A program made the position numbers and the translations under genes. This document shows, piece by piece, positions 1,275 to 30,538 of a stretch of DNA of 30,990 bases (the stretch's first letter is position 1; the number at the start of each line of letters is the position of its first letter). The notes below the pieces were generated by a model. The model was not told the DNA's origin, did not search any database, and saw only the letters and a program-made list of their open reading frames with translations. The DNA comes from a virus: positions 1 to 30,990 of IMG/VR virus record IMGVR_UViG_3300023444_000303; one strand, 5' to 3'.

Positions 1275-1850
1275 TCAGACCCCATTCATCGTGTGGTTTA
1301 TGAAGGTCTTGAGCGTATCGCTGGAGGTCTTGTTGAAGGTCGCGGCAAAAAGAGCGTGCGTCAGAGCCTTCGTTGGCGCGGCGATGTTATCCACCAGCGC
1401 CAGCTCTGCGATGTTATTCCCGTTACCCTCGGTTGTGGCGTGGCTCACGCGCCACGAGACGATATCAATGCCCTTGCCCGCGGCGTTATCGGGGTCAGTG
1501 TCATTCGTCATGGGATAGGTGCCATCCATGGCCTTGCCCGAACCTGCAAGATAGGTCGTTACGTCCGTATCAGTCTTCGTGGCCGCGGCCGTGCCCGTGC
1601 CAAGCCTGATGCCAGCCACGGTCCATGAGGGCGCGCCCACGGCGGCCTCTGCGTAATATTGGTCGCCATCGTTGGTGACGATGTTGGCCAGCCCGATTAT
1701 CCGTCTCTTGCCCGGCCCTTCAAGAAGGGCAAAGCCGTTACACCTACGCAATTTGCCGTCAGGGAAAAGTGTCTTCCCCGCAAGAAGTCTGAAGGCCATA
1801 ATCTTTTCTATAAGGCTCAAGTTCGTGCTTTTTCCTTCCAATATCCTCAT
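1275..1850 (-). CDS. Phage virion-type protein of unknown function
   Basis: A 191-aa protein, soluble and beta-rich. A GGGAGGAG site precedes its ATG at 1850. It has a helical N-terminus (STNLSLIEKIMAFRLLAG), then GLANIVTNDGDQYYAEAAVG and IRLGTGTAAATKTDTDVTTYL. Residues ~115-140 read TNDTDPDNAAGKGIDIVSWR, and the C-terminal region has ALFAATFNKTSSDTLKTFIN. I recall this pattern in many phage genomes near tail fibres, where it is unnamed. A role in the tail tip or fibre is inferred from position and composition. It ends 1 bp before the next start. Confidence 0.75.
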   Translation of the reverse strand: MRILEGKSTNLSLIEKIMAFRLLAGKTLFPDGKLRRCNGFALLEGPGKRRIIGLANIVTNDGDQYYAEAAVGAPSWTVAGIRLGTGTAAATKTDTDVTTYLAGSGKAMDGTYPMTNDTDPDNAAGKGIDIVSWRVSHATTEGNGNNIAELALVDNIAAPTKALTHALFAATFNKTSSDTLKTFINHTMNGV

Positions 1851-1860
1851 TGTCTCCTCC

Positions 1861-2022
1861 CTATTGTTTGCTCTTTTTTAGGACAGCAAGAACCGTCTCA
1901 TGCGTCCTGATTTTTTCGTTTGTACCCGTCGCGCATTTAAACGCTCGAAAGATGCTGATGCCTGCAACAAGCCAAAAAAGGCCTGTGGATAAATATAAAA
2001 AAAGACTCCATATCGTACTCAT
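1861..2022 (-). CDS. Small 53-aa membrane protein
   Basis: This is a short gene read from the minus strand. The ATG at 2022 overlaps the preceding stop by 4 bp (ATGA), AGAGAGG lies 7 bases upstream, and TAG ends at 1861. Residues ~3-27 are one membrane segment (WSLFLYLSTGLFWLVAGISI), and the rest is a basic cytosolic tail (TGTNEKIRTHETVLAVLKK). No family is recognised. A small membrane protein beside tail genes could be a lysis or exclusion protein, but nothing shows which. The coupling and ribosome-binding site make it likely real. Confidence 0.7.
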   Translation of the reverse strand: MSTIWSLFLYLSTGLFWLVAGISIFRAFKCATGTNEKIRTHETVLAVLKKSKQ

Positions 2023-3728
2023 GGTTTAACCTCTCTTTTCGGGGTTTTGCTGATTATGCCTCTCTGGGACGTCATTGATTTAATTCCTCGCGCTACGGAG
2101 CGGACGACAATGGTGAGGTTCTCGCCGAGGACGCCAAGCGTGTCGAGGCCGAGCTTTTTTACGAGGCCCTCAATGAGGCTCAAGCCCTCATTTACTACCT
2201 TGACGATACCGAGGTACTTTAATGCAGCCTCGGCTACGCTCATGGCCTCGGAGACGACTCTCACAAGCCCGGCCCTTTTCAAGGCCGTTTCAACAAGACT
2301 CATGGTCTCTGTAGCTATTCTCACGAGGAAGCGACTTCTTATAATGTCCTCAGTAATATTAACCGTCTCTGAGAGTATGCGGCGTAGATTTCCGCGCCGT
2401 GCGGTGTTTTCAGAAATAGAGACTCCCTCGGAGGCGGTTCTGGTGAGACCAAGCCGCCTGGTTATTGCACCGGCCATTTGCACGCTTTCGTTGACGACCT
2501 TAACGAGGAGCGTGGATATGGACTTCGCGGCGGTCTCTGTCAGGTTCTGTGTCTCTGTAATTATGCGTCGGAGGGTTCCGCGCCGTACGATGCTTTCGGA
2601 AACAGATTCGCTCTCTCCAATAAGCCTATTCAGCGCTCCGCGCCGGAGCAAACCTTCAGTCAAGCTGGCTGTCTCGGCGATGATACGGCGGAGTAGACCC
2701 CTGCGTTGTATGCCTTCGGGGAGGGATTCTGTCTCTGATACTGGCCGTGTCATGGCCATGCGGCGGATATATCCGTCAGAGACCTGCGCAGTCTCTGCGA
2801 TGATTTTAAGGAGAGCCGTCCCGCCGCCGCCCGCCACATACTCATCGGCGCCGATGTCCCAGGGGGCAGTGCGAAGTTGCCCTTCTATGTCATCAGTGAA
2901 CGTAGCGGAAAGGTCTGCGCCAAAGTCCCTTGCTCCCGTATCCGTAGCGGCAAGGTGCAGGTCACGGTTGACTGCGTCTACGAAGGTGAAGGTCTGGCTG
3001 ACTCTGTCATTGGCCCCGCCTGTGGATGTGGCGTCATCCGAGGCGTTGTAATCGCTTGCAGAGTTGAATGTGCCGTTGTAACCGCTCCTCGCAGGGGCAG
3101 CAGAAAGGTTGTTTTTCAGGATTGCATTTGCAGTATTTGTTTTTACATTATAATCCCCGTCATAGAGCGTGTTGTTGTAGAAATAACTCGATGTGGAGCA
3201 GGCCCCTATATAGAGGTTTGCGTTCCATGATTTTTTATGCCCATATATTACATTGTTCCAGACCTTGAAAACATCTCCAGTGCACCAGATGCCATTACGC
3301 AATGTGCTCCCGCCACCATCTACGATGTTATAGGCAAACTGTATCTCTGATGGCGTGCCCATGAAGTGAAAGGATACGTTGTCCCTGCTCGATGTTGGAG
3401 CAATAGCCTTTATCTGAAGGCCGAATATACGAACGTGGTCATCCTGACAATCTATTGCCGTTGCATCGGTGACTTCAAGCCTGTACTTTGTCGCATCCCA
3501 TTTGCCATTGTGTCTCTCGGAGGTGGGTGTGCGGATTTCAATGTAATGTGTGGCATCCGTCGTAAAACCATTTATGGCCACAGCCGTGGTGTCACTCATG
3601 GAATAACACTCGGCAACGGCTATTTCGTTGAGGGTAACGAGGTCTCTCTGCTCTCCCGCTTCCCACGCTGAAAGCGACGTATAATCACCGCCGGAGGGCT
3701 TTATTGTCTTTATTACAATTGTCGCCAT
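2019..3728 (-). CDS. Right-handed beta-helix tail protein with 20-residue tandem repeats
   Basis: A 569-aa protein. Residues ~1-300 look like a parallel beta helix of the pectate-lyase type: GGDYTSLSAWEAGEQRDL at the start, asparagine-rich rungs such as NGIWCTGDVFKVWNNVIYG and SYFYNNTLYDGDYN (~140-195), and a closing segment DIGADEYVAGGGG near 290-303. Residues 306-548 are about twelve ~20-residue repeats (consensus L-x-R-I-x-x-E-T-x-x-I-x-E-x-I-x-R-R-G). The last 21 residues are basic. The beta helix could bind or cut a surface polysaccharide; no catalytic set is evident. It follows the tail hub genes and overlaps a tiny membrane-protein gene by 4 bp. Confidence 0.85.
   Translation of the reverse strand: MATIVIKTIKPSGGDYTSLSAWEAGEQRDLVTLNEIAVAECYSMSDTTAVAINGFTTDATHYIEIRTPTSERHNGKWDATKYRLEVTDATAIDCQDDHVRIFGLQIKAIAPTSSRDNVSFHFMGTPSEIQFAYNIVDGGGSTLRNGIWCTGDVFKVWNNVIYGHKKSWNANLYIGACSTSSYFYNNTLYDGDYNVKTNTANAILKNNLSAAPARSGYNGTFNSASDYNASDDATSTGGANDRVSQTFTFVDAVNRDLHLAATDTGARDFGADLSATFTDDIEGQLRTAPWDIGADEYVAGGGGTALLKIIAETAQVSDGYIRRMAMTRPVSETESLPEGIQRRGLLRRIIAETASLTEGLLRRGALNRLIGESESVSESIVRRGTLRRIITETQNLTETAAKSISTLLVKVVNESVQMAGAITRRLGLTRTASEGVSISENTARRGNLRRILSETVNITEDIIRSRFLVRIATETMSLVETALKRAGLVRVVSEAMSVAEAALKYLGIVKVVNEGLSLIEGLVKKLGLDTLGVLGENLTIVVRSVARGIKSMTSQRGIISKTPKREVKP
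2085..2813 (-). repeat. About twelve tandem 60-bp protein-coding repeats
   Basis: Most units are exactly 20 codons, with one of 22 and a weak last one of 21. Consensus positions: Leu at 1, Arg at 3, Glu at 7, Glu at 13, and basic residues at 17-18. Charge and hydrophobic spacing are regular along the whole array. Copies differ at DNA level, so this is an old repeat rather than a recent slip. Confidence 0.85.
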
Positions 3729-4261: not shown

Positions 4262-6709
4262 TTAATATTCCCTCGCCCAGAGGGTCATACGGTCGTTTCT
4301 CATCTCACGGCCTGAGCCTGGATGTATGTTGACACGCTCCACCTCTGCGAGGAGGCTTGAGAGCGGAGTTATGGTGATGGCGTCGGCAAATTCCAGCTCA
4401 GAGTTATCGAGGAAGACATCCATGGAGACGAGCTTTTTGCGGTCTTTGTATCGAGTCAGATAAAAATCGCGGAGGTCCAACGCCATTGCCGCATCCACAA
4501 CAAAATCGAAGAAAAAGAGGTCTGGCTTTTCCTTTTCGCCGTATTTTGTAATGGAGGTTGCATCCGAGACCTCGGTCATACCCCGGTAACTGTCCTCTGT
4601 GCCCCCGGAACCCTCCCAGTCGCGGTCATAATGCACCGTGACCTTGTTAATAAGATCGCCCAGAGGCGAGCGTTTTATCCGCGTGGTCGTCTTGGAGTCA
4701 CTCTTCATGCGTACCATGGCGGCCGTAATCGTTTTATCAGATGTAAGGGTGTCCGGCCTGTAGAGCAGATTGGCCTGTGAGTTATAGGAGCGATACCAGC
4801 ACCGGCACTGCCATGCCATGAACTGGAGCCATTCTTTGAGGCGGCGGTACTCGTTGATAACTACGGCGAACTTGTAACCCTTGGCCGCGAAGGATGCTCC
4901 CGCGTCGGTGACGAAGGCCGAGGGTGTCAGGCCTCCATAGGTGGCGACAAAGTGGTTAATTACATGGTCGGGCCTCTCGATGAGCGCCGATGGAGTGCCC
5001 GTGAATGTCCCGGTGCCGTCGTCCTGATATCCTTGCAGGTCTATGACGACACGGTCTGCGACGGTTGTATCTGCAACGGAATTGCCGCTCATGGTCACTG
5101 TCCCGGACTTAGTCACTGCACCTGTTCGGTCTACTGTGCCTGTTTTTGATATCGTGCCTGTCTTGGTAGCCGCTCCGCCCTTTGTGACTCCGCCGGTCCT
5201 GCTTGCGGCTCCTGTTTTTGCGGTATTCTGTGTGGCCGCCACGGGGGCCTGTGTATACCTGACAGACCGCGAGATCACATTTACGGTGGTTCCGAAACTC
5301 TGCCCCCCAGCCCATGTCACGCTCGTGGGAGCGGCGTTAACTCCAGTTTTTGTGAATATGTTTCCCGCGTTATTTGTCATGGCTATGCCGAGAATGCTTA
5401 AGGTGGTCGAACCGCCACCAACGTCTACATTGTAGACCGCATCTATGACCGTGCCGGGCGGCGCAGGGAAAGACCATGCCCCGGAGTTCTTACAACTCGT
5501 TGGCAAGGCCGGCGAAATAGGATACTGCGTAACCGACTGCTCGCTGGAACCATGGTCGTGAGCAGGGTTAGAAACGCCGATGTTATCTGTAACCGTTAAG
5601 AGGTCATTAACGGTGATCGTATCGCTGACTCCAATCCCATCGACGGCCCCGATGGTGTCCACTATGGCTATCGCGTCATTGACCGCTATCCCGTCTTGAA
5701 CCAACAGGTCAACGGCCTGATCTCTTGTAATCTTGGAAGGGATAACAATTATGGCCTTATTCGGCCAGGTAGCATGCTGGCTCCCGGCCTGACCTGTGTA
5801 TTGAGTTACGACACCGGTAATCTTAAGGAGCGTATTGTCGCCCTCGGCATAAATGTCAGTGAATGCTTTTATCGGGTGATCAGCGACCATGTATGTAAAG
5901 TCAGTCCTCTCTTCCCAAACTACGGCTCCCCTGCCATGAATAGCTCCGATTGTGGAGTTCACCCCACGGGTAAGACCTGTTAACTGATTACCCGTTTTCC
6001 CTGTATATGTTAGCTGTTCGGCTTCAATGCCGATGGTTCCCGTTACTGGAAACTCCGTGGCATCGACGAGCATGAGCGTTGTCTGTATATCATCTATGGC
6101 CGCATCGAGATAATCCAGCGCACCGGCTACTATGGCCAGGGCTGGAACCTTCTTGACCGTCCCATAAACGATGGGGCCGACCTTGCCCACATCATCGGGG
6201 TCGGCCAGCGGATAGGTCGTTGTATCAATCTTAAAACCAACGTACTTGTCGAGCCTTACGGACTGATCAACGAGATCAACCGCGTATACAAGCTCATCCT
6301 CCTTGGTCCAGTCAATCATATTGCCTGTCCACATAAGCTGGGGCGGGTCCGTGGCGGCGTTGAGCCCGGTAAACCAGAGATAGAGCTCGCAGTCCGTTGT
6401 CTCCGGGGCGTTTGCCGGGTCGTCGATGATGGTCTCAATATTGGGAACGACCCCAGGGTCAATGATGAGTTTCACCGACATATCCGCCACCATGGGAGCG
6501 GCAATCAGACTGGAGATATTCTCGTTTATCTGTCCCCAGTCGCGCACCCAGGCAAGCGTTGTAGGCCCAGTCTCCCAGCCGGTCACCGTAAAGGTCTGGT
6601 CGGAAAGATAGACCGTGCCCGAGGCAAAGGGGCACTTCAAAATCCATACCGGGGCGATGCCAGCGGGCTTGTTTTTCTCTGTATTAAATAATGCAGGAAA
6701 GGTCTTCAT
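4262..6709 (-). CDS. Large tail tip/hub protein with hexapeptide-repeat arrays
   Basis: An 815-aa protein. I choose the ATG at 6709 (AAGGTGG upstream, 1-bp overlap TGATG with the preceding stop) rather than 6802, which lies in the upstream gene. The N-terminal part is beta-rich (GTVYLSDQTFTVTGWETG), with a phage-type EAEQLTYTGKTGNQLTGLTRG block near 225-245. Two tandem hexapeptide arrays follow: 7 units of D-x-I-x-V-x (5570-5695) and 8 units of x-x-T/S-G-x-V/A/I (5078-5221). The C-terminal ~270 residues have the layout of hub or tip-attachment proteins (INKVTVHYDRDWEG, ELEFADAITITPLSSLLAEV). It lies where siphophages encode the tail hub/receptor proteins. Confidence 0.8.
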   Translation of the reverse strand: MKTFPALFNTEKNKPAGIAPVWILKCPFASGTVYLSDQTFTVTGWETGPTTLAWVRDWGQINENISSLIAAPMVADMSVKLIIDPGVVPNIETIIDDPANAPETTDCELYLWFTGLNAATDPPQLMWTGNMIDWTKEDELVYAVDLVDQSVRLDKYVGFKIDTTTYPLADPDDVGKVGPIVYGTVKKVPALAIVAGALDYLDAAIDDIQTTLMLVDATEFPVTGTIGIEAEQLTYTGKTGNQLTGLTRGVNSTIGAIHGRGAVVWEERTDFTYMVADHPIKAFTDIYAEGDNTLLKITGVVTQYTGQAGSQHATWPNKAIIVIPSKITRDQAVDLLVQDGIAVNDAIAIVDTIGAVDGIGVSDTITVNDLLTVTDNIGVSNPAHDHGSSEQSVTQYPISPALPTSCKNSGAWSFPAPPGTVIDAVYNVDVGGGSTTLSILGIAMTNNAGNIFTKTGVNAAPTSVTWAGGQSFGTTVNVISRSVRYTQAPVAATQNTAKTGAASRTGGVTKGGAATKTGTISKTGTVDRTGAVTKSGTVTMSGNSVADTTVADRVVIDLQGYQDDGTGTFTGTPSALIERPDHVINHFVATYGGLTPSAFVTDAGASFAAKGYKFAVVINEYRRLKEWLQFMAWQCRCWYRSYNSQANLLYRPDTLTSDKTITAAMVRMKSDSKTTTRIKRSPLGDLINKVTVHYDRDWEGSGGTEDSYRGMTEVSDATSITKYGEKEKPDLFFFDFVVDAAMALDLRDFYLTRYKDRKKLVSMDVFLDNSELEFADAITITPLSSLLAEVERVNIHPGSGREMRNDRMTLWAREY
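5078..5221 (-). repeat. Eight tandem glycine hexapeptide codon repeats
   Basis: Eight 18-bp units encode a hexad with a central Thr/Ser/Gly-Gly and final V/A/I (examples TKTGTI, SKTGTV, DRTGAV). The basic residue at position 2 and glycine at 4 recur. It probably makes a narrow fibrous solenoid. The array is separated from the first by about 115 residues. Confidence 0.8.
5570..5695 (-). repeat. Seven tandem hexapeptide codon repeats
   Basis: Seven 18-bp units encode a hexad with consensus D-x-I-x-V-x (examples DGIAVN, DTITVN, DNIGVS). The alternating hydrophobic positions fit a beta-solenoid or beta-prism with short turns. The repeat is at protein level; DNA copies have drifted. Confidence 0.8.
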
Positions 6710-8028
6710 CAGGCCACCTTGAGGAGCGTTAATGAACCCGAATAGCGGCCAAAGCGCACCTGCCTGAAGTCGCGCGTGTCCGATATTAGGCGCACTGTCC
6801 AAGCAGTGCCGTCCTCATCATAGTATGTGAATGTATTCTTTGCGCCAACGGCCACGGTGTCGATAAAGGTCTTCAGTGCGGTCCAATCTGCGAGAGGCAG
6901 GCTCTCCCATTTAAGGACAAACTTCTGTTCCGTGATGCCCTTGTCGTAAACGTACAAAACCCCTCCGTCAGACATATCGCGGGGCTGTCTAAATTTAAGG
7001 GGTGCTTCAAGGTTCCCAAAGCGAGGGTTTTGTGTGAATTGAACCAGTTCCGGAAACTCAACACTATCAACCTCAACCCCCATTAAGTTACCACCGCATT
7101 TAAATTGAATAGCCCTTGCATTTGTAGTTGTTAACGTAGCTGTAAACGGAATGGTGAAAAGTTGCCATGAAGATGTTAAGGTTATATCAGTAGTAGGCCC
7201 ATAAGTAGCCCAAGGCACTGCACCTTCTTGGAAAAGTATCCGCACAGGTTTTGTTACAGGTTCATTGGTATCAGTAGGAAGTACAGAGGAGCCTATTACA
7301 AAGATTGCCTTATCACCATATACAGTGCCACCCCCAGCCAAGATTGGAGTTTTTAATGGAGCTAATCTTACTTGGGTTGCTGCAGCATCTATTGTGCGAG
7401 TGACAGTAAGAAATTCCCAAGAACCTCCTCCTGAATGAAAAGCTGAAAAAGTCTCACCAGTGCCATCATAAATTGTAATGTGCGCTGTGTTTGCCACAGT
7501 GGCATAAACCCATGCGCCCAATGTGACGGTCTTACCCTGCCAAAAAACTAATCCAGTGGGGATAGAAATGTCTTGGAATAAACCATCATTAAACCCTGGA
7601 GCTACGACAATTTTTGCTGAATTTAAGCCATCATGAACAATAGTAGTTTCTTTAGTAATCTGCTGAACCGAGTGAAAATAACCATCAGGTAGCGCCCCTG
7701 CCCACGCCTCATAATCGGGGTTTGATAGCCAATCACCTGTCAGGGTAGTTCTGGCGGCAACCCTTAATAAGTAATCTTGGCCTGCAACAATATTAATAAG
7801 GTTTGCCTCATCAGTATAAAAGAAAACATTTAAAGCAGTATATCCTCCAGTGCCCCCGTTAGTTATATCAACCTTATAATTATAAGCTCCGGCATACGGT
7901 GCGGCAGAAGATATAGATGCCGCTGCCGTAGCACCTCCGGCAAGCTGTAATACCCACCCAGAAGTGTTACCTGTTTCAAAGTTTCCGTTGACTTGGCGGT
8001 TAGGGCCTTCAAACCTTATTAACGACAT
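6709..8028 (-). CDS. Distal tail protein with carbohydrate-binding-like modules
   Basis: A 439-aa protein in two parts. Residues ~330-439 look like the base part of a tail-tip protein (QNPRFGNLEAPLKFRQPRD, then KFVLKWESLPLADWTALKTF and the end RFGRYSGSLTLLKVA). Residues ~12-329 look like CBM4/9-type jelly rolls: VNGNFETGNTSGWVLQ at the start, NPDYEAWAGALPDGYFHS near 103-120, and SSWQLFTIPFTATL near 293. The second module appears to sit inside the first. The DNA for residues ~23-315 (about 7085-7960) is clearly AT-richer than its neighbours, a sign of later gain. Likely role: part of the tail tip that touches the host surface sugars. Confidence 0.8.
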   Translation of the reverse strand: MSLIRFEGPNRQVNGNFETGNTSGWVLQLAGGATAAASISSAAPYAGAYNYKVDITNGGTGGYTALNVFFYTDEANLINIVAGQDYLLRVAARTTLTGDWLSNPDYEAWAGALPDGYFHSVQQITKETTIVHDGLNSAKIVVAPGFNDGLFQDISIPTGLVFWQGKTVTLGAWVYATVANTAHITIYDGTGETFSAFHSGGGSWEFLTVTRTIDAAATQVRLAPLKTPILAGGGTVYGDKAIFVIGSSVLPTDTNEPVTKPVRILFQEGAVPWATYGPTTDITLTSSWQLFTIPFTATLTTTNARAIQFKCGGNLMGVEVDSVEFPELVQFTQNPRFGNLEAPLKFRQPRDMSDGGVLYVYDKGITEQKFVLKWESLPLADWTALKTFIDTVAVGAKNTFTYYDEDGTAWTVRLISDTRDFRQVRFGRYSGSLTLLKVA

Positions 8029-8215: not shown

Positions 8216-8444
8216 TGTTTTTTCTCCTGCAATTAATAGTTATGGAGCCGGGCAAGCTCATCACGCGACGGAGCGTGTTGAGACGCGTGGCCTCTGATGG
8301 TCCCGAAAAAAAGACTCCGCCAGAGGTTTTCTCCTCAAGCTGTGCCCACTCCACGCGTAGTCTTTCCAGTCGTCTGCAATCAGCGGCCATGGAGACCGAG
8401 GGGATAAGAAGGATTAGAAAGACTATAATAGAACACCACATCAT
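8169..8444 (-). CDS. Small exported protein of unknown function
   Basis: A 91-aa protein with a clear signal peptide (MMWCSIIVFLILLIPSVSMA, residues 1-20, cleavage expected after SMA). The mature part is basic and short, with two cysteines (AADC near the start and INCRRK near the end), which could form one disulfide. It starts at the tape measure stop with a 4-bp overlap. A periplasmic protein encoded beside the tail tip could block later injection (superinfection exclusion) or aid tail function; neither is shown. Its 3' end overlaps the next gene by 47 bp. Confidence 0.65.
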   Translation of the reverse strand: MMWCSIIVFLILLIPSVSMAADCRRLERLRVEWAQLEEKTSGGVFFSGPSEATRLNTLRRVMSLPGSITINCRRKNNESLDHGYESVQSVP

Positions 8445-11083
8445 ACCCTCTCGTTTAGTCTAAGAAGCTCGTCACGAGTCTCCAGGGCCGTCTCATGGGG
8501 CGACTTGGAGCCGTTGATATTGACAGTCACGTCCATACGGGTAGTGCCGCCGCCGCGTGAGCCGGAGACGGTCTGGCCAAATAATTGTTTGCCTATCTCA
8601 AAGGGCGAGAGCCCCGAGGTAGGCAACTGCCGTGAGATTTCGGACTTCACAACCTGATTATCCAAAAAGGAGAGCAGGTCCGGCGACGCGAGGGAATTCT
8701 GAACATTTGATATCCCCGCCGTAACCGCAGAGAAATCAGCCGTGACCGCAGGGCGTATCGCCGAGATAGAGCCGAACATGGTCTTGATGTCGTTAATCTT
8801 CTCGGAGATAGGCAAGACCGCCGAGCCCTGGCCTTTTATGGGGATGATAACAGGGGCACTTAGACCGGCTAACTCTGCCTTCAGGCTTTTTACGCCGCTA
8901 AGGGCGTCCTCGATGCCGGAGACCTTGACAATCGGCGAGAAGGTCTTACCCGTTGATATGCCGTTAAATGCGCTGGTAAGGTCTTTCAGCCTGTCCTCCA
9001 CGGCCTTTATGTCGTCAGAGGGAGCCTCGGAAAACTTCTTGCTCTTCCAGTAGTCATCCCATTCTTTCTGCCTCTTTGTCTGGAAATCTTGAATGGCTAC
9101 TATGCCGCCTTTGGCCGCGGCATTAAGGTCGTCGGCGAACTTGACTCCTGAGTCCGGGGCCTCAACCTTCTGCCCCTGCTTGCCCTTGAGGTCATCGAGG
9201 ATAGCGTTGATTCCGGTGCTTGCCGCCTGATAGGCGCGGAGGATATCTTCAGGCGTGGCGACACCGCTATCTTTTATGGTTACAAAGGCCGCTACGGCCT
9301 TGTCGGCCATCTCAATAAGCTGAGCAGTGCTGTCTATATTAAGGGTTCCAAATGCGGCTGTGAGATCAGAGAGCGCCTTCTCTCCCGTGCTATCAGGAAG
9401 GTTCGCGCCGGGTGCTTTGTCGGGTGCGGGCTTGCCCTTGGAAGCCTTTTTCTTTTCTTCTTTATCAAGGAGCTCCTTCTGCTTTTTCAGGGCCACATCT
9501 AAAAACGCGGTAAGTTGTTTAACGCCGTCAATGGCGCCCTGCCCCGGAGCAGAAGTAAGCCTTGCTATGGATTCTTTTAAAACCTTTATCTCCGAGTTTA
9601 TATTTTCAAGGGTCCTCGGCACCGGGGCAGCGCTTACATCGATGCCCGTCATCCATGCGGCAAAGGAGCCCAACCCACGACCGAAATCTCTAAATAATAG
9701 TGCGCCTTTTGTTACTTGTGGCAAAAGCACTTTGAACGCCGGGAGTAAAATCTCTCCAAGTTGTTCTCCAAGAATCTTAAAGGCGTTGGTTGTAGATGTG
9801 GCCTCTGATATCAAACTCTTTGATGCGGCCGAGTATTCCTTTTGCAGTGACTTACCAAGCTTGTACTCGCTGTTAGCCCGCGCCAGACTGATATTTAATT
9901 TATCCGTTCCTTTTGCGAGGCCGAGCATTGTCTGAAGCACCCTTCGGCCCTCAAGCCCTAAATCAGAGAGGGCCTGCACGGCCGTGAACTTATCCATCTC
10001 ACTTAATGCCTTTGATAGAAGTTCTATTGCTTTAATGGGATTGTCCTTGACCAGCGCGGTAAATTCTTTTACGGATACACCGGCCGCCTTGGCGAAATCG
10101 GCGGAGTTACTGATTATTTTCGAAAAAACTTGAAGGATAGCTGTGCCGGCCACCTCGGTGTTAAGGCCCATATCTTTCATTGTGGCGCCGAGGGCAAAGA
10201 TTTCAGGAGTTGTAAGCCCGAGGGTTTTGCCCATAGTGCCGGTGATTTTAACGAAGTCAACAAGATCGGAAGAAGATGCGGTAGAGTTATTAGAAAGAAT
10301 GTTCATCACAGAGGCCACTTTTTCAAGGTTGGTAATAGGCTCATCAAGCACGTTGCCCAACTTGGCCAGCCCTTGAGCCGCTTCCTCAGAGGTCAGGTTC
10401 GTAGCCACACCTGTCATGGCAATAACTCTCGTAAATTCAGAAAGGTCCTTTGAAGCCACACCCAACTGTCCGCCTATGGCCGCGATTCCCTGCAGTTCCT
10501 CCAACTTAATGCCCTTCATCTCAACAGAGAGGTCCCTTATTTTTTTCTTAAAAATCTCCAACTCTGTGCCGGCAAGGCCGGTCCGCTTAACAACCTCTAT
10601 CCAGCCCTGCTCGATATCAGCGATGCTCCGTAAAAAAATACGTCCGAAGCGGATTGCGCCGTAGGATATCAGCAGGCCCTTAAGGGTGAAGAGCTTTTTT
10701 ACAACATTACCCGCAGTGACCTTAAGGCGGCTGAAGGCGGAGATGCGCTTTCGAGTTACAGCAAGGCTGTCTTTAGTTGATGAGGCCACAGACTTGTTGG
10801 CCGCTACAACGGTGCGCTTGTACTCTTTCCACTCAGCGGATAGCCGCCGCATGGCAACCGTATGCGCGTCGGCATGGGTAGCGCCGCCCTCCATCGCCTC
10901 TTTCATGGCCGGCCCCATGCGCCCTTTCAGGAACTGGGTCCATGTCAGCGCGGCCTGTTGCGACGTGGTGGCGCTCTCACTTATGCGTTTAAAGGCATTC
11001 TGTCCGTCACGCCCGAATTGATCGAGCTTTACCGAGGCATCCTTTACGTTCGCATTTACGTTGATTCCGACTTCTGTTGCCAC
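8441..11083 (-). CDS. Tape measure protein (TP901-1 type)
   Basis: An 880-aa protein that sets tail length; at about 1.5 Å per residue this suggests a tail of roughly 130 nm (estimate). It starts with the usual VNVKDASVKLDQFGRDGQ-like helical region. Residues ~165-460 are the TP901-1 minor tail core with AIGGQLGVASKDLSEFTRVI, the LTSEEAAQGLAKLGNVL helix and GTAILQVFSKII. A hydrophobic segment LKGLLISYGAIRFGRIFL lies near 135. After ~560 there is a lysine-rich, low-complexity linker, and the C-terminal part ends in a GGGTTRMDVTVNINGS-like strand near ~845-860. The end overlaps the next gene by 4 bp. Confidence 0.93.
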   Translation of the reverse strand: MATEVGINVNANVKDASVKLDQFGRDGQNAFKRISESATTSQQAALTWTQFLKGRMGPAMKEAMEGGATHADAHTVAMRRLSAEWKEYKRTVVAANKSVASSTKDSLAVTRKRISAFSRLKVTAGNVVKKLFTLKGLLISYGAIRFGRIFLRSIADIEQGWIEVVKRTGLAGTELEIFKKKIRDLSVEMKGIKLEELQGIAAIGGQLGVASKDLSEFTRVIAMTGVATNLTSEEAAQGLAKLGNVLDEPITNLEKVASVMNILSNNSTASSSDLVDFVKITGTMGKTLGLTTPEIFALGATMKDMGLNTEVAGTAILQVFSKIISNSADFAKAAGVSVKEFTALVKDNPIKAIELLSKALSEMDKFTAVQALSDLGLEGRRVLQTMLGLAKGTDKLNISLARANSEYKLGKSLQKEYSAASKSLISEATSTTNAFKILGEQLGEILLPAFKVLLPQVTKGALLFRDFGRGLGSFAAWMTGIDVSAAPVPRTLENINSEIKVLKESIARLTSAPGQGAIDGVKQLTAFLDVALKKQKELLDKEEKKKASKGKPAPDKAPGANLPDSTGEKALSDLTAAFGTLNIDSTAQLIEMADKAVAAFVTIKDSGVATPEDILRAYQAASTGINAILDDLKGKQGQKVEAPDSGVKFADDLNAAAKGGIVAIQDFQTKRQKEWDDYWKSKKFSEAPSDDIKAVEDRLKDLTSAFNGISTGKTFSPIVKVSGIEDALSGVKSLKAELAGLSAPVIIPIKGQGSAVLPISEKINDIKTMFGSISAIRPAVTADFSAVTAGISNVQNSLASPDLLSFLDNQVVKSEISRQLPTSGLSPFEIGKQLFGQTVSGSRGGGTTRMDVTVNINGSKSPHETALETRDELLRLNERV

Positions 11084-11708
11084 TCTTCGACTTCCTCTTC
11101 TAATATGGATAGTTTCTCAAACGTGAATCTGTCGGGTCTGATACCATAGCCCTTAAAGAACTCCCTCTTGAATCCCCACTTCCGCACGAGCATGAATACA
11201 TCTATGATCGCCCCATCTTCTTCTGTAAGAGAGGGCTCAGCCGCCTCGCAGTCTCCACAGTTAACGGCCTTATCTACACTGCGGCAAGCGCGGCAGTAGC
11301 CCGGCCCGCCCTCTAAGGACCATCGGACGTATTCGCGGATTTTTTTTTAGACTTTTCTTCTTTCTGCTCGATAAAGAACCTCATCTGCGTGCAGGCAAGG
11401 TTCACAAAATCCGAGAAGTCAAAGCTCCGCCTCATAAGAAGGTCGCAGTGCTCAGGGCTGTAATCAAAGGGTTGGCCGCCTACGGTAAGGTTCCGCCAGT
11501 CCCTTACGGCGGCCCTGCCGAGAAGCCTATTCTGTTCGAGCTCGTCAAGGGTCTCCACGGGCCTGTTTTTTGCCCAGTCGAGTTCCGTCGCCTTTTTACG
11601 CAGTTTGATAAGCTCTTCTTTAGAGACGTAGCGCATGAGTACCTCGCCGTCTTCGCCGAAGGGCACCCAGCGCGTTATGTCCTCATCTGTCAATCTGCCA
11701 AGTTCCAT
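11056..11708 (-). CDS. Tail assembly chaperone G-T (frameshift product)
   Basis: This is the predicted fusion made by a -1 shift on the A9 run. It is 217 aa, with G residues 1-123 joined to 94 residues from the second frame. The extension reads IREYVRW at the joint and has paired cysteine knuckles (CRAC and CGDC, 8 residues between), a helical FMLVRKWGFKREFFKGYGI block, and an acidic end (EEEVEEWQQ) stopping at 11056. Its last 28 bp overlap the tape measure start at 11083, as in lambda. Without it, about 230 bp between G and the tape measure would be empty, so the extension is well supported. Confidence 0.85.
11313..11708 (-). CDS. Tail assembly chaperone G
   Basis: A 131-aa short product of the tail chaperone locus, between tail tube and tape measure, matching the lambda G position. 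The protein is helical and acidic: an N-terminal LTDEDITRWVPFGEDGEVLM, the EELIKLRKKATELDWAKN helix, and a cysteine-containing LACTQMRFFIEQ helix at the end. It ends soon after a run of nine A (11340-11348). Chaperones like this bind the tape measure during tail assembly and are absent from virions. The same locus makes a longer product by frameshift, listed separately. Confidence 0.85.
   Translation of the reverse strand: MELGRLTDEDITRWVPFGEDGEVLMRYVSKEELIKLRKKATELDWAKNRPVETLDELEQNRLLGRAAVRDWRNLTVGGQPFDYSPEHCDLLMRRSFDFSDFVNLACTQMRFFIEQKEEKSKKKSANTSDGP
11340..11348 (-). other. Slippery A9 site for -1 frameshifting
   Basis: Nine consecutive A on the minus strand (T on the plus strand) read as AAA AAA AAA in frame G. 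A -1 slip leads into a frame that stays open for 94 more codons, while frame G ends after 8 more codons. The run gives the tandem slip sites that such chaperone loci need. Confidence 0.8.
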
Positions 11709-11729: not shown

Positions 11730-12680
11730 TTAGAGCGTGGCCAGCCCGTTTGTTATCGTTACCTGAACGCTCGTGGCCTCCGCCGAGTTATCAAAATAGG
11801 CCTCAAAGTCCATATTGACCTTGATACCCTTGGGGCCTGAAATCTCAGGCCCTGTACGCTTGTACCTCAGCTCGGGGATGAGTATCTCCACCTTGCGCGC
11901 CGGGGCCAGACCCTTGTCGAGGGTTATCTTAAGGCTCGACTCCGTTGATGTGCGCGCCTTGGCAAGGAGCGTGTCGTCCTCGAAAAAGGCCTCGATGGAA
12001 CCCGTCACGGAGACGACACCTTCAGGGAGCTCCGACCGCTCACCGGCATCGCCGATGGCGTAGACATCAGGGTCGAGGTCGTTGTTGATATCTATCTTGA
12101 AGCTCGTCACTGTGGCGATGGCCGCGCCGCCCTCGAGGACGACGGCCTGAAAGCCCGTAAACTTGTCATAGGCGTTGCTCGTTGGCGTGGTGTCGTAGGC
12201 CGTGACACCCTGTGTCTCCTTTGCGCCCATGATGCCCCATGTCGCTTTTATGAGACCTTTGGGCGTGACCTCAAGGCCGAGGGAGTTTATCCGGCAACCG
12301 TTGTATTTGTGATACTGGTTGATGTCAGTGAACTCCTTGTTCACCACGAGGCCCACGGGAAGCGTGCCTACCTTCAGGACGTGCGTGTAGGGGTCTCCCG
12401 CGCCTGTCGTTGTCACCGCGCCAAGGAGGTGCTTGAAGAGGATGGCGTGAGCCGTGGCCGAGAGGTTGCAGACCAGGTCGCCTGCGACGTTAGTATTGTC
12501 CAGCTCCGGTGAAGATTTATTACGACTGCCCGTGAGAGACTCGTCGGTTATGAGCGCCTGCTCGGCCTTCAGGTTGCTGGAGATAAAGGGAATGACGAGC
12601 CCGTTGACGGCTCCGGGGTCGGCCTTATAGGTCGTCTCTTCGTCTACGATTATTCGCGCGTTCGCGCCGGTGGCTTTCAT
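11730..12680 (-). CDS. Major tail tube protein
   Basis: A 316-aa beta-rich protein of the phage tail tube group. It opens with the typical stretch ANARIIVDEETTYKADPG, then SSNLKAEQALITDESLTGSR (~34-53), and contains NGCRINSLGLEVTPKGLIKATWGIMG (the family beta core, ~128-153). The second half has VTSFKIDINNDLDPDVYAIG and EVVSVTGSIEAFFED, and a final sheet. It is longer than lambda gpV, as many have an added C-terminal Ig-like or beta domain. No sheath gene is present nearby, so the tail is non-contractile. It is followed by the chaperone genes. Confidence 0.88.
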   Translation of the reverse strand: MKATGANARIIVDEETTYKADPGAVNGLVIPFISSNLKAEQALITDESLTGSRNKSSPELDNTNVAGDLVCNLSATAHAILFKHLLGAVTTTGAGDPYTHVLKVGTLPVGLVVNKEFTDINQYHKYNGCRINSLGLEVTPKGLIKATWGIMGAKETQGVTAYDTTPTSNAYDKFTGFQAVVLEGGAAIATVTSFKIDINNDLDPDVYAIGDAGERSELPEGVVSVTGSIEAFFEDDTLLAKARTSTESSLKITLDKGLAPARKVEILIPELRYKRTGPEISGPKGIKVNMDFEAYFDNSAEATSVQVTITNGLATL

Positions 12681-26945: not shown

Positions 26946-27495
26946 TTGCCTCCTTCAATAGCTGTACTCTTTTTCTGAGCTCCTCCATGGACGGCCGCTC
27001 GGGGCCTATATCCTCTACGAGGCGCCATTCCACAATATGAGGATTGCCCGGCCCTTTATCGTGCGTTACGATTGCGGCGCGGCGGAGGAGTCTTAAAAAA
27101 TATTTAACGTTATTGCGCTTCGCTTCCGAAGTCGCAACGAGGTCACGCACCTTAAAAGACCTCATAACCCTTATGGCCCGCCACATACGGTCCCAGGCGG
27201 TGTCCTTACGCTTAAAATTCAGGACCCTTTCCTTCCGGTCCTTTAGTGAGACAAGGACGAGATACACGATGTTGGCCACCCTTGGCCGCCCGACACGCTC
27301 TTCATTTTCAAAGATGCGGCGGTATCTGATGATATGGCCCTCCCGCACAAGGCGGTTCATGCACCAGTAGACTTTTTTCTGAGGCAACCCCGTCTTGTCA
27401 GCCAACTTGGCGAGGGTAAAAAACTGCCCGCGTCTGGAGAGGCACGCGTCCACAACTTTGACCAAAGGCTTCTTATTCGTGTCAGGCGTACTCAT
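26929..27495 (-). CDS. Double winged-helix DNA-binding protein
   Basis: A 188-aa protein with two apparent winged-helix units. The first spans residues ~10-65, with recognition region FTLAKLADKTGLPQKKVYWC and a wing VREGHIIRYRR. The second spans ~95-155, with VRDLVATSEAKRNNVKYFLR and a wing RRAAIVTHDK. This resembles MarR/ArsR-like folds but lacks a sensor domain or metal site that I can see. It follows B with a 4-bp overlap, a position where transposable phages often carry small DNA-binding regulators. A role in early-gene control or replication is inferred; the exact family is not recognised. The tail (ERPSMEELRKRVQLLKEA) is a short coiled coil that could dimerise. Confidence 0.8.
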   Translation of the reverse strand: MSTPDTNKKPLVKVVDACLSRRGQFFTLAKLADKTGLPQKKVYWCMNRLVREGHIIRYRRIFENEERVGRPRVANIVYLVLVSLKDRKERVLNFKRKDTAWDRMWRAIRVMRSFKVRDLVATSEAKRNNVKYFLRLLRRAAIVTHDKGPGNPHIVEWRLVEDIGPERPSMEELRKRVQLLKEASDETT

Positions 27496-28196
27496 GCTAT
27501 GAGCCTCGTAAGCCTGCGTTTGATGACCTTATCTACCATCTCCGGCCCGGCCTGCGTGCCGCCCTGTGAGCGTACGGCCTTCTCGATATCCGGGACAAAG
27601 TGCTCAATTGCCCTCATGGTGGAGAGGGCCTTTGCCGCGTCATCGCTGAGGGTCTCATCGGGGAGCTCCACATCTGTGAGCTGACGTATAATTTCAAGGA
27701 CCTCGGACTTGTCGAACTCATCGAACTCAACCTTGCGGTAAATGCGGGAGCTGAGCTGAGGATATGTCCTCAGCGATTCCTCTATCTCGCCCATGCCCAC
27801 GAGGACAACGGGGATGCGGCAAAAATCATGTATAGACTGGATGGTCTCAAGTAAGCGGCGGTCGTGGCGTAGCCGGTCGGACTCGTCGATAATGAGGTCA
27901 ACCTTGTCGCGCGCGAGGACTTCCTTAATCTGGCGGCTCCTGCCGCTGAGCTTATGGGCCGGGACAATGCCCATCTCAAAGCAGAGGTCGTCCAAAAACC
28001 AACCTATACTCCAGCCGGGCTGAGCCTCCATGTATAACGCGCCATTCTGAGCTGAATGCCAAGCGCAGGTGCGCGTCTTGCCGAGGCCTACGCGCCCCTT
28101 TACAAAGACTATCTTTGGGCCGCGCTTGGCCCGCGCCGCGTCAACGGCTTCGCGGAACCTTATGACGTTTTTTGTCTCTACAAAATTATCGTTCAT
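27492..28196 (-). CDS. B: MuB-type AAA+ ATPase, DNA transposition target-capture protein
   Basis: A 234-aa P-loop ATPase that in Mu-like phages coats target DNA, stimulates the transposase and gives target immunity. Walker A is GRVGLGKT (residues 34-41), Walker B is LIIDESD (101-107), sensor 1 lies in VVLVGMGE (~130-137), and SSRIYRKVEF (~149-158) carries a candidate arginine finger. The C-terminal ~60 residues form the helical lid and end. Mu B is 312 aa and begins with a helix-turn-helix domain of about 60 residues. Here the P-loop is only 34 residues from the start, so that domain is missing. A separate HTH protein at 18998-19333 resembles the missing part. It overlaps both neighbours by 4 bp, consistent with one operon with A. 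Confidence 0.93.
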   Translation of the reverse strand: MNDNFVETKNVIRFREAVDAARAKRGPKIVFVKGRVGLGKTRTCAWHSAQNGALYMEAQPGWSIGWFLDDLCFEMGIVPAHKLSGRSRQIKEVLARDKVDLIIDESDRLRHDRRLLETIQSIHDFCRIPVVLVGMGEIEESLRTYPQLSSRIYRKVEFDEFDKSEVLEIIRQLTDVELPDETLSDDAAKALSTMRAIEHFVPDIEKAVRSQGGTQAGPEMVDKVIKRRLTRLIA

Positions 28197-28435: not shown

Positions 28436-30538
28436 TTATTTGCTCTGCTTGAGGCCACCGTGTTTTGTGACCCATTCCCTCAACATCTCAACCTCTGTAT
28501 CCATACTCGATGAGTAATGAGGGTCGTCTCTGTATTTGACAAAATAGTTGTAGTAATCGCGCTCGTGGAACTCCAGCCGCCCGTTGACGTAGTCGTCGCG
28601 CCATTTCAGAATGTGCGGCTCCAAGGGTATGCCGAGGACCTCGGCCTTTCTGAGATACTGATAGTTGAGATATGCCTCATAAGTCGGGAGCTCTTTAATG
28701 ACCTCGGGAAACTCGTCGTAAGGAGTCTTGGGCTTTGGCGGCTCTTTTATTGAGCACTTTGATATATCGATTATTTTCGTGATGTCCTCTGCGGCGGGGA
28801 ACCTCAGCGGCGAGGCTTCCTCTCTGTCACTCAGGTGCTTTAGCATGCGGTCTTTTACGCCGCCCTGCGCCAGCTTCTTCTCAGCCCGCGCAAACTGCTT
28901 GAGGGCGGATTTCACCACCTTTTTCTCACTTATATATTGCTCCATGGACCACTTTGCGGCCCCATGGGCAATGGCGTAACAATGGAGTTTACTGCCCTGA
29001 TAAACAGCGAGGCGCGATATGTCGTTGATATCGAGGCGCACGGTAACGCGCTTGCCCACGAGGCTTACGAGCTCCGGGGCCGTGTAGAGCCGCGCGTCCA
29101 GAGAGATACCCTTCTTGCCGACACGGCGCGTATACTGCGGGTGAGTGAGCATCTCAAGCTCGCCGGGCGTGACCTTACGCATACGCCAGCCTGGAGCGAA
29201 GAACCGCTCGCGCCGAGGCTGACCCGTTGTGGAGGGCGTGGCCTCGTTATATTCGTGCTCCACCCAACTTTCAAGAATCTTGGCAAACTCCTCGGTCGTG
29301 TAGTTGACCTTGATGACCTCGGGCCGCGTAACAATGGAGTTGCCCACATAACCCGTGAGCTCGGCAAGGAGCTTACGCGATACGTCGCCGAAGAACCGCT
29401 CAATATGCGGCTTTTTCTCGGCGGCCTTGACCGCGAGTTTGGGCACCTCTACGCTGAGGTCGCGAAGGAAGCCGGATACCCACTTCGAGGCGTAGTCCTT
29501 GCCGTTGTCCTTTTTCAAGCGTTCCGGTATGCCGTATTTTTCAAAACCGCGCGCAAGCGTATCCACAACGCCCCAGGCGTTGGACTTCGGCTGTATGGTG
29601 ATGGATGGGCAGAAACGGGCATGGACATCAATGCAGGCGACGAGCTTATGCCGTTTATTATCTGAAGTCATGATGTCCGCCACGGTGGAGTCTATCTCCC
29701 ACGTATGGTTCGGGTATGGCGCCTCTTCCGAGGCCGATCCGAATGCCGCGAGATACTTCTTTTTCCAACGGTGCTCGCCCCAGTGTGCCATACATATCTC
29801 TTGCGGATGCTCGGCGCCCCATGCGTTCAGAAAGCGCACCAGGGCCGCGTATGACGGGACAATCTCCGTCGGAAAGTCGCCCTTGAGGTAATCGAGGATG
29901 CGGCGTATCTTACGGGGCCGTTCGATAAAATAAGCGATGGCCTTTTTGCGCACATCGGGGTGGATATCGCGTTCGCGGCCTTTGTAGTTCGGGACGAGGC
30001 CCCGGAGGCCGTCTTTCTTATAGGCGGCCATCTTGCGATACAGCGTGCCGCGTGATAAACGGCCCGCCTCGGCGCGGAGGCCCGTGTCTATAAAACCGGC
30101 GTTAAAGGCGGCTATGAAGTGCTCCGTACTGCGTGTTCTGTCATTATCCGTAATAGCATTATGAGCGAGCCCTATGATGCGTTCCCAAAGGAAGGCCCTT
30201 CTACGGGCCGTCTCCGAGACATTCACAAGGTCATTTTCAATAAAAGGCGCCGCCAAAGGTTGGGTCAGGCCTCCGGCGGCAGGGTTGCCCGAAGAGGTGA
30301 AGGAGGTCAACGCCTCTTCGGGCAAGGCGCAAGCTGGTGCGGAAGTAGGGCGGGTTTTGAGGTGAGCCATTATGCGTAATTTTATGTCCTCGGGGAGGTC
30401 CTTGATGTCGTAGAGACAACGGCGACCGCCACGGACTGTCTCCGTTGTGAAAGGCCACGACTCGCGGGCGGCCCTACGCCGGACGCTCCGTTGATGAACC
30501 TTGAGCACTTTTGCTATGTCTTCTGCCGTAAAGGTCAT
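28436..30538 (-). CDS. A: MuA-type DDE transposase
   Basis: A 700-aa DDE recombinase that would cut the phage ends and join them to target DNA in integration and replicative transposition. Residues ~1-60 form an N-terminal winged-helix DNA-binding domain (AEDIAKVLKVHQRSVRRRA). Residues ~110-260 are the end-binding helical region, with a GTLYRKMAAYKKDGLRGLV helix-turn-helix. The RNase H-like core follows: D283 in TWEIDSTVAD, D344 in KKDNGKDY and E380 in KPHIERFF, giving the D-x35-E spacing typical of this superfamily and matching the D269/D336/E392 layout of Mu A. Residues ~430-500 fit the Mu transposase C-terminal beta barrel, and the basic C-terminus (~560-700) is where Mu A contacts B and ClpX. 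Length is close to Mu A (663 aa). All three catalytic residues are present, so it looks active. Confidence 0.97.
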   Translation of the reverse strand: MTFTAEDIAKVLKVHQRSVRRRAARESWPFTTETVRGGRRCLYDIKDLPEDIKLRIMAHLKTRPTSAPACALPEEALTSFTSSGNPAAGGLTQPLAAPFIENDLVNVSETARRRAFLWERIIGLAHNAITDNDRTRSTEHFIAAFNAGFIDTGLRAEAGRLSRGTLYRKMAAYKKDGLRGLVPNYKGRERDIHPDVRKKAIAYFIERPRKIRRILDYLKGDFPTEIVPSYAALVRFLNAWGAEHPQEICMAHWGEHRWKKKYLAAFGSASEEAPYPNHTWEIDSTVADIMTSDNKRHKLVACIDVHARFCPSITIQPKSNAWGVVDTLARGFEKYGIPERLKKDNGKDYASKWVSGFLRDLSVEVPKLAVKAAEKKPHIERFFGDVSRKLLAELTGYVGNSIVTRPEVIKVNYTTEEFAKILESWVEHEYNEATPSTTGQPRRERFFAPGWRMRKVTPGELEMLTHPQYTRRVGKKGISLDARLYTAPELVSLVGKRVTVRLDINDISRLAVYQGSKLHCYAIAHGAAKWSMEQYISEKKVVKSALKQFARAEKKLAQGGVKDRMLKHLSDREEASPLRFPAAEDITKIIDISKCSIKEPPKPKTPYDEFPEVIKELPTYEAYLNYQYLRKAEVLGIPLEPHILKWRDDYVNGRLEFHERDYYNYFVKYRDDPHYSSSMDTEVEMLREWVTKHGGLKQSK

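Follow-up and report, generated by a model that had tools for sequence, protein, structure and literature searches.

The stretch of DNA analysed here (the window) comprises 30,990 nucleotides of the IMG/VR virus record IMGVR_UViG_3300023444_000303 and carries on its minus strand a gene, G (11708-11313, minus), that starts with ATG and whose 0-frame product of 131 amino acids matched PHROG 313 'Tail assembly chaperone' in a PHROG profile search (E=2.3e-11). Directly 5' of G lies the gene of a tail protein (11730-12680, minus; phrog_290, 2e-61, labelled 'minor tail protein') and on its other side the gene of the tape measure protein (8441-11083, minus; phrog_13339, 6e-42; phrog_28, 1e-39), so that G has a tail (tube) gene on one side and a tape measure gene on the other, as expected of such a chaperone. 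Judged from its position, the product of 11730-12680 is likely to be the tail tube protein, with which a T domain would make contact. The AlphaFold model of G had a pLDDT of 85.5, and structure searches of the PDB gave no significant match to solved tail chaperone structures for either G or the T part described below. As genes for a transposase (28436-30538, minus; phrog_310, 2e-87) and a DNA transposition protein (27492-28196, minus; phrog_296, 6e-38) are present, the window probably represents a Mu-like transposable phage whose tail genes are ordered as in a long-tailed phage. Two further genes located 3' of the tape measure gene, 6709-8028 (439 aa, minus) and 2019-3728 (569 aa, minus), had no PHROG match. 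The transposable Pseudomonas phages D3112 and B3 were considered as cultured relatives, and a slip site of the kind described below was not found near the end of their annotated chaperones.

Close to its end G reads AAA AAA AAA at codons 121-123 (11348-11340, minus), as the initial annotation had pointed out; this A9, which exceeds every other homopolymer of the window in length, contains, in phase with G, the tandem-slip heptamer A_AAA_AAA (11346-11340). From the slip site a -1 frame, T (11346-11056, minus), which represents a C-terminal extension of G, stays open for 96 codons plus a stop codon. Without the two Lys codons that also belong to G these are the 94 codons to 11056 counted initially, and the frame reaches into the tape measure gene, whose GTG start (11083) lies inside T with an overlap of 28 bp, also as reported. 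The initial annotation had further described an otherwise empty stretch of ~230 bp, and the gap between the G stop and the tape measure start indeed measures 229 bp and is filled by the T frame. The predicted G-T protein has 217 amino acids, 123 residues of G and 94 of T, with the junction ...SKKKIREYVRW.... A TAA immediately 5' of the A-run closes the -1 frame, so that entry into T is possible only within the nine A's. In dinucleotide shuffles the openness of 96 codons was kept in just 90 of 20,000 cases. Judged by the codon usage of the phage itself, the T frame scored +24 bits in the part 3' of the G stop and the other two forward frames -17 and -37 bits; one reverse frame in the same stretch reached +24.8 bits but has two stops inside.

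The translated T frame contains the motif C-x2-C-x8-C-x2-C at residues 18, 21, 30, and 33 (11295-11248, minus), and its AlphaFold model is helical with a pLDDT of 83.5, which agrees with the CxxC-x8-CxxC plus helices read initially; the cysteine stretch is the least certain part of the model (block means 56-76). No family in PHROGs or Pfam was matched by the window T, DUF1799 (see below) included. A BLAST search of this frame against phages, plasmids, and viral contigs gave no real relatives, and a match in Psp6 sits among non-tail genes. Compared with the main group of T domains collected as described below, the window T showed moderate likeness (hhalign E=4.9e-5, probability 68%). Its best-named structural match in the viral library was a 'tape measure chaperone' of Enterobacter phage F20, which was weak.

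Relatives were obtained by several searches. Scanning with G led to L002, from IMG/VR, and L004, a Nitrospirae MAG; a PHROG 313 search of 396 Nitrospirota-phylum genomes gave 21 loci, and viral scans gave 18 loci through T and 15 through G, which partly overlap. A T-profile search of the 396 phylum genomes led largely to the same genomes as the G profile, at adjacent places. The window G shares 40-48% identity with those of L002, L004, and L027. The layout is repeated at more than 40 related loci from Nitrospirota-phylum genomes and IMG/VR contigs, and a T frame of the window family after G, with an in-phase XXXYYYZ heptamer exactly at the T start, was detected at 20 of the 21 phylum loci and at all viral loci examined. 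Among 43 distinct loci that were aligned, all keep a slippery run and an open -1 frame, contrary to what the initial annotation had named as evidence against a programmed shift, relatives lacking the A-run or with stops in the second frame. The heptamer is A_AAA_AAC in most of them, A_AAA_AAA in the window, L027, and L015, A_AAA_AAG in L044, and G_GGA_AAC in L042 and L078, and the T frame starts with KK[LIVR] at all A-type sites and with GK at the two G_GGA_AAC loci. L027, an independent genome, has an A9 in an SKKK context identical to that of the window. A pattern scan for further A9 sites returned seven chance matches, none of them with a chaperone.

In four close pairs of relatives dN/dS in the T frame was 0.15-0.25, far below the values of both remaining frames. 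A fifth pair, which is more diverged, had a T-frame value of 0.47, and a sixth pair was too similar to tell. The T frame of the relatives is thus under purifying selection, and the conserved layout together with the low T-frame dN/dS argues that this frame is translated and that the frame change is programmed and not an error. Conservation in the relatives is the strongest evidence that the T frame is real. Two loci differ from the general picture. In L009 (~1842-2246, reverse strand of the locus), the one phylum locus outside the 20, a PHROG 313 chaperone is followed by a different -1 frame that has neither a KK start nor cysteines and whose only heptamer is AAATTTT; this second frame is possibly another T type. 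In L026/L059 (G095 contig C18), which is among the 20, an early stop breaks the G frame 5' of an intact slip site and T frame, which probably reflects a decaying prophage or an assembly error.

With the coliphage set aside, 43 of 44 full-length T domains carry the four cysteines, which lie roughly within residues 17-61, so that two cysteine pairs, as in a Cys4 zinc knuckle or ribbon, are conserved across the family. Their usual spacing is C-x2-C-x12-C-x5-C, the spacing C-x2-C-x8-C-x2-C being found in the window and in L015. As one viral T scan used a pattern with one Cys and was therefore biased, conservation was assessed first at loci that had been reached only through G, where the cysteines occurred at 19 of 21 phylum loci and at all six new viral loci; in one of these six, L082, the contig end cuts T and all four Cys are visible. 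Thus, the homologue search proposed in the initial annotation found both the slippery run (43 aligned loci) and the cysteines conserved, and a zinc-ribbon-like T part, which had been regarded as unusual, turned out to be the norm in this branch. The four cysteines are a family trait of this T branch and not an oddity of the window phage. The sole exception among the 44 domains is L017, which keeps the layout without the cysteines, so that not all phages of this kind require them.

Some members of the family connect it to known proteins. The Pfam family DUF1799 (PF08809, cut-off 26 bits) was matched by the T domain of L017 (37.7 bits), that of L015 staying below the cut-off (21.5 bits), and the match lies 3' of the cysteine region; phrog_680 was matched by the T domains of L015, L017, and L023. 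Through these matches the branch is connected with coliphage HK578 (Dhillonvirus) and its T domain. The gp15/gp16 pair of HK578 has A_AAA_AAC at the equivalent place and a T part that starts with KKLIEAAR, consists of DUF1799, and is a relative of those of L015 and L017. However, HK578 has a Pro-rich linker and no cysteine cluster in that region, and its two proteins are annotated as 'tape measure' and 'hypothetical'. Similarly, the pairs of Enterobacter phage F20 and Nitratiruptor phage NrS-5 have A_AAA_AAC or A_AAA_AAG and T parts starting with KKLKRAV or KKVRKYL, but these T parts lack the cysteine cluster. In the helical T part, the Cys4 knuckle sits between the first helix and the DUF1799-like helices, and it is characteristic of one branch within a wider T family, either inserted there or retained. 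Matches to T domains of this family were obtained for phrog_680 ('tape measure') as well as for phrog_23549 (unknown function), and both look like T parts of chaperones and not like tape measure proteins. In Escherichia phage KarlBarth (L029, MZ501088.1) an intact T frame at 1501-1824 is unannotated, only a short 3' piece being called as a gene. BLAST searches of the T domains of L011 and L023 against phages gave no match.

Many relatives with A_AAA_AAC can form a stem of up to 13 bp starting 5 nt 3' of the heptamer; such a stem, at a distance of about 5-7 nt, is present in L002, L004, L008, L010, L011, L013, L016-L022, L024, L025, L030, L032, L033, L038, L046, and others; the stem arms of L011 are GCTCACATCCGGG...CCCGGGTGTGAGC. 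In 25 ungapped sequences 77% of the cells of the stem are paired, a share that falls to 32-50% if one arm is displaced by 1-3 columns. In the same sequences pairs changed on both sides in a compensatory way amounted to 26 cells, compared with 12.0 +/- 2.7 in shuffles, none of 500 shuffles reaching this number. The clearest covariation places the Arg codons AGG/CGG opposite the Pro codons CCT/CCG, both changes being silent, and a second group of sequences with one extra codon likewise shows a compensatory hairpin pattern. RNAalifold gave only a weak consensus for a mixed alignment, since several members do not have the full stem, and the pair counts for the defined stem told more. A Shine-Dalgarno (SD)-like motif 5' of the heptamer was present at 26 of 45 loci, compared with a background of 24%, although the loci are related and the nominal significance is therefore optimistic. 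Many relatives thus resemble the E. coli dnaX cassette, with an SD-like motif 5', a slippery A-run, and a hairpin 3', whereas the shift at G/T extends the product instead of shortening it and the window lacks both stimulators: folding 3' of its A9 was not above chance (-15.3 kcal/mol vs a shuffled mean of -14.5), with no stem-loop a few nucleotides 3' of the heptamer, and there is no SD-like motif 5' of the run. Both A9 sites, those of the window and L027, are without hairpin and SD-like motif, as are some A_AAA_AAC or A_AAA_AAG sites, for example those of L034 and L044.

These data were used to weigh how T is made. That T forms a separate gene and has a start of its own, as some coliphage records annotate it, is hard to reconcile with the window T frame, which has no ATG, GTG, or TTG before codon 52, that is, past the cysteines, and with most relatives, which have no start codon between the 5' T-frame stop and the heptamer. 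Homopolymer errors do occur and an erroneous run length could hide frames that are truly fused, but the two-frame layout is also found at A6C sites, in which a wrong run length is improbable, and the recurrence of A9 in the same SKKK context in L027 supports the run as real and not as the assembly error that the initial annotation had warned of; taken together, a separate gene or an assembly error is highly improbable. Much more weight has to be given to slippage of RNA polymerase instead of the ribosome, which would add one A to part of the mRNA and yield the same 217-aa G-T by ordinary translation. Slippage of the bacterial RNA polymerase is efficient on runs of 9 A or T (PMC5009743), the window has no homopolymer longer than its A9, and the two A9 sites lack the hairpin and SD-like motif that are common in relatives with A_AAA_AAC. 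However, the family typically has A6C or A7C, which is not long enough for polymerase to slip markedly. The A9 loci known number only two, which is too few to prove a trade-off between run length and stimulators, and L034 and L044 show that such a trade-off is not tight. In addition, A_AAA_AAA is itself a good ribosomal slip site. An exclusively transcriptional origin of G-T is thus possible but on the whole doubtful. Tandem tRNA-Lys slippage of the ribosome at A_AAA_AAA is probably what produces the shift, this modest preference for the ribosome in the window resting on the ribosomal form of the family slip site, and it is quite possible, if short of probable, that RNA polymerase slips on the A9, either alone or in addition. 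Of the programmed -1 shift put forward in the initial annotation, the G-T product has gained support from the conserved layout and from selection on the T frame, while for the mechanism polymerase slippage has become a serious alternative or partner, as in the window the stimulators are lost and the run is lengthened.

With respect to the cysteines, they might form a redox (disulphide) element or be incidental, and not bind a metal. Searches including the PDB revealed no match of T to a known zinc fold in structure or sequence, and the T domains of L017 and of the coliphage DUF1799 type manage without them. On the other hand, the CxxC...C-x(2-6)-C type of spacing in 43 of 44 T domains of an expected cytoplasmic protein is typical of a zinc knuckle, and the redox or incidental reading is rather unlikely. 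The Cys4 knuckle is most likely a structural zinc site, zinc binding and function being deduced from the sequence pattern. In the literature searched, which covered few subscription papers, no description of a Cys4 knuckle in a T part was found.

G/G-T-like chaperone pairs occur in most long-tailed phages, with lambda as the model, where the tape measure protein is bound by G together with a minority of G-T, and tube subunits are brought in by T (PMC5009743). Like lambda gpG/gpG-T, the locus shows the order tail protein, G, T, tape measure protein, with a -1 shift near the end of G that would yield a C-terminally extended product in a minority; unlike lambda, it has a different slip site and T sequence, and for lambda T no Cys4 knuckle is described in the literature found. 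The frames, the slippery site and its conservation, selection on T, and the conserved cysteines are established from the sequences. We conclude that the locus very probably makes a lambda-like G / G-T tail assembly chaperone pair from one start, with T carrying the Cys4 knuckle. Most ribosomes would stop at the G stop and release the 131-aa G, and a minority would enter the -1 frame within the A9 and produce the 217-aa G-T. If lambda is a guide, the tape measure protein would be bound by many copies of G and few of G-T, the T part would recruit tail-tube subunits, and G and G-T would leave before the tail is completed; the occurrence and efficiency of the shift in the window and the contact of T with the tube protein are inferred. 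A more speculative and unlikely scenario is that G-T production was switched within this one chaperone family, from a hairpin-assisted ribosomal shift at A_AAA_AAC in most members to polymerase slippage on A9 in the window and L027, with a metal-bound T knuckle gripping or releasing the tail-tube protein.

Programmed G/G-T pairs are known from lambda, and the conserved four-cysteine T part appears, from the literature searched, to be an undescribed variant. T domains with this conserved knuckle are in use in a large branch of the tails of uncultured phages, and they are likely missed or split by standard gene callers. Sequence evidence is supplied here for both the slip site and the stimulator hairpin. 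With its compensatory silent changes, this hairpin could be turned into a covariance model for detecting chaperones of this kind. The family is a natural set in which to compare ribosomal with transcriptional slippage at one gene, and the poorly understood T part becomes testable through its cysteines.
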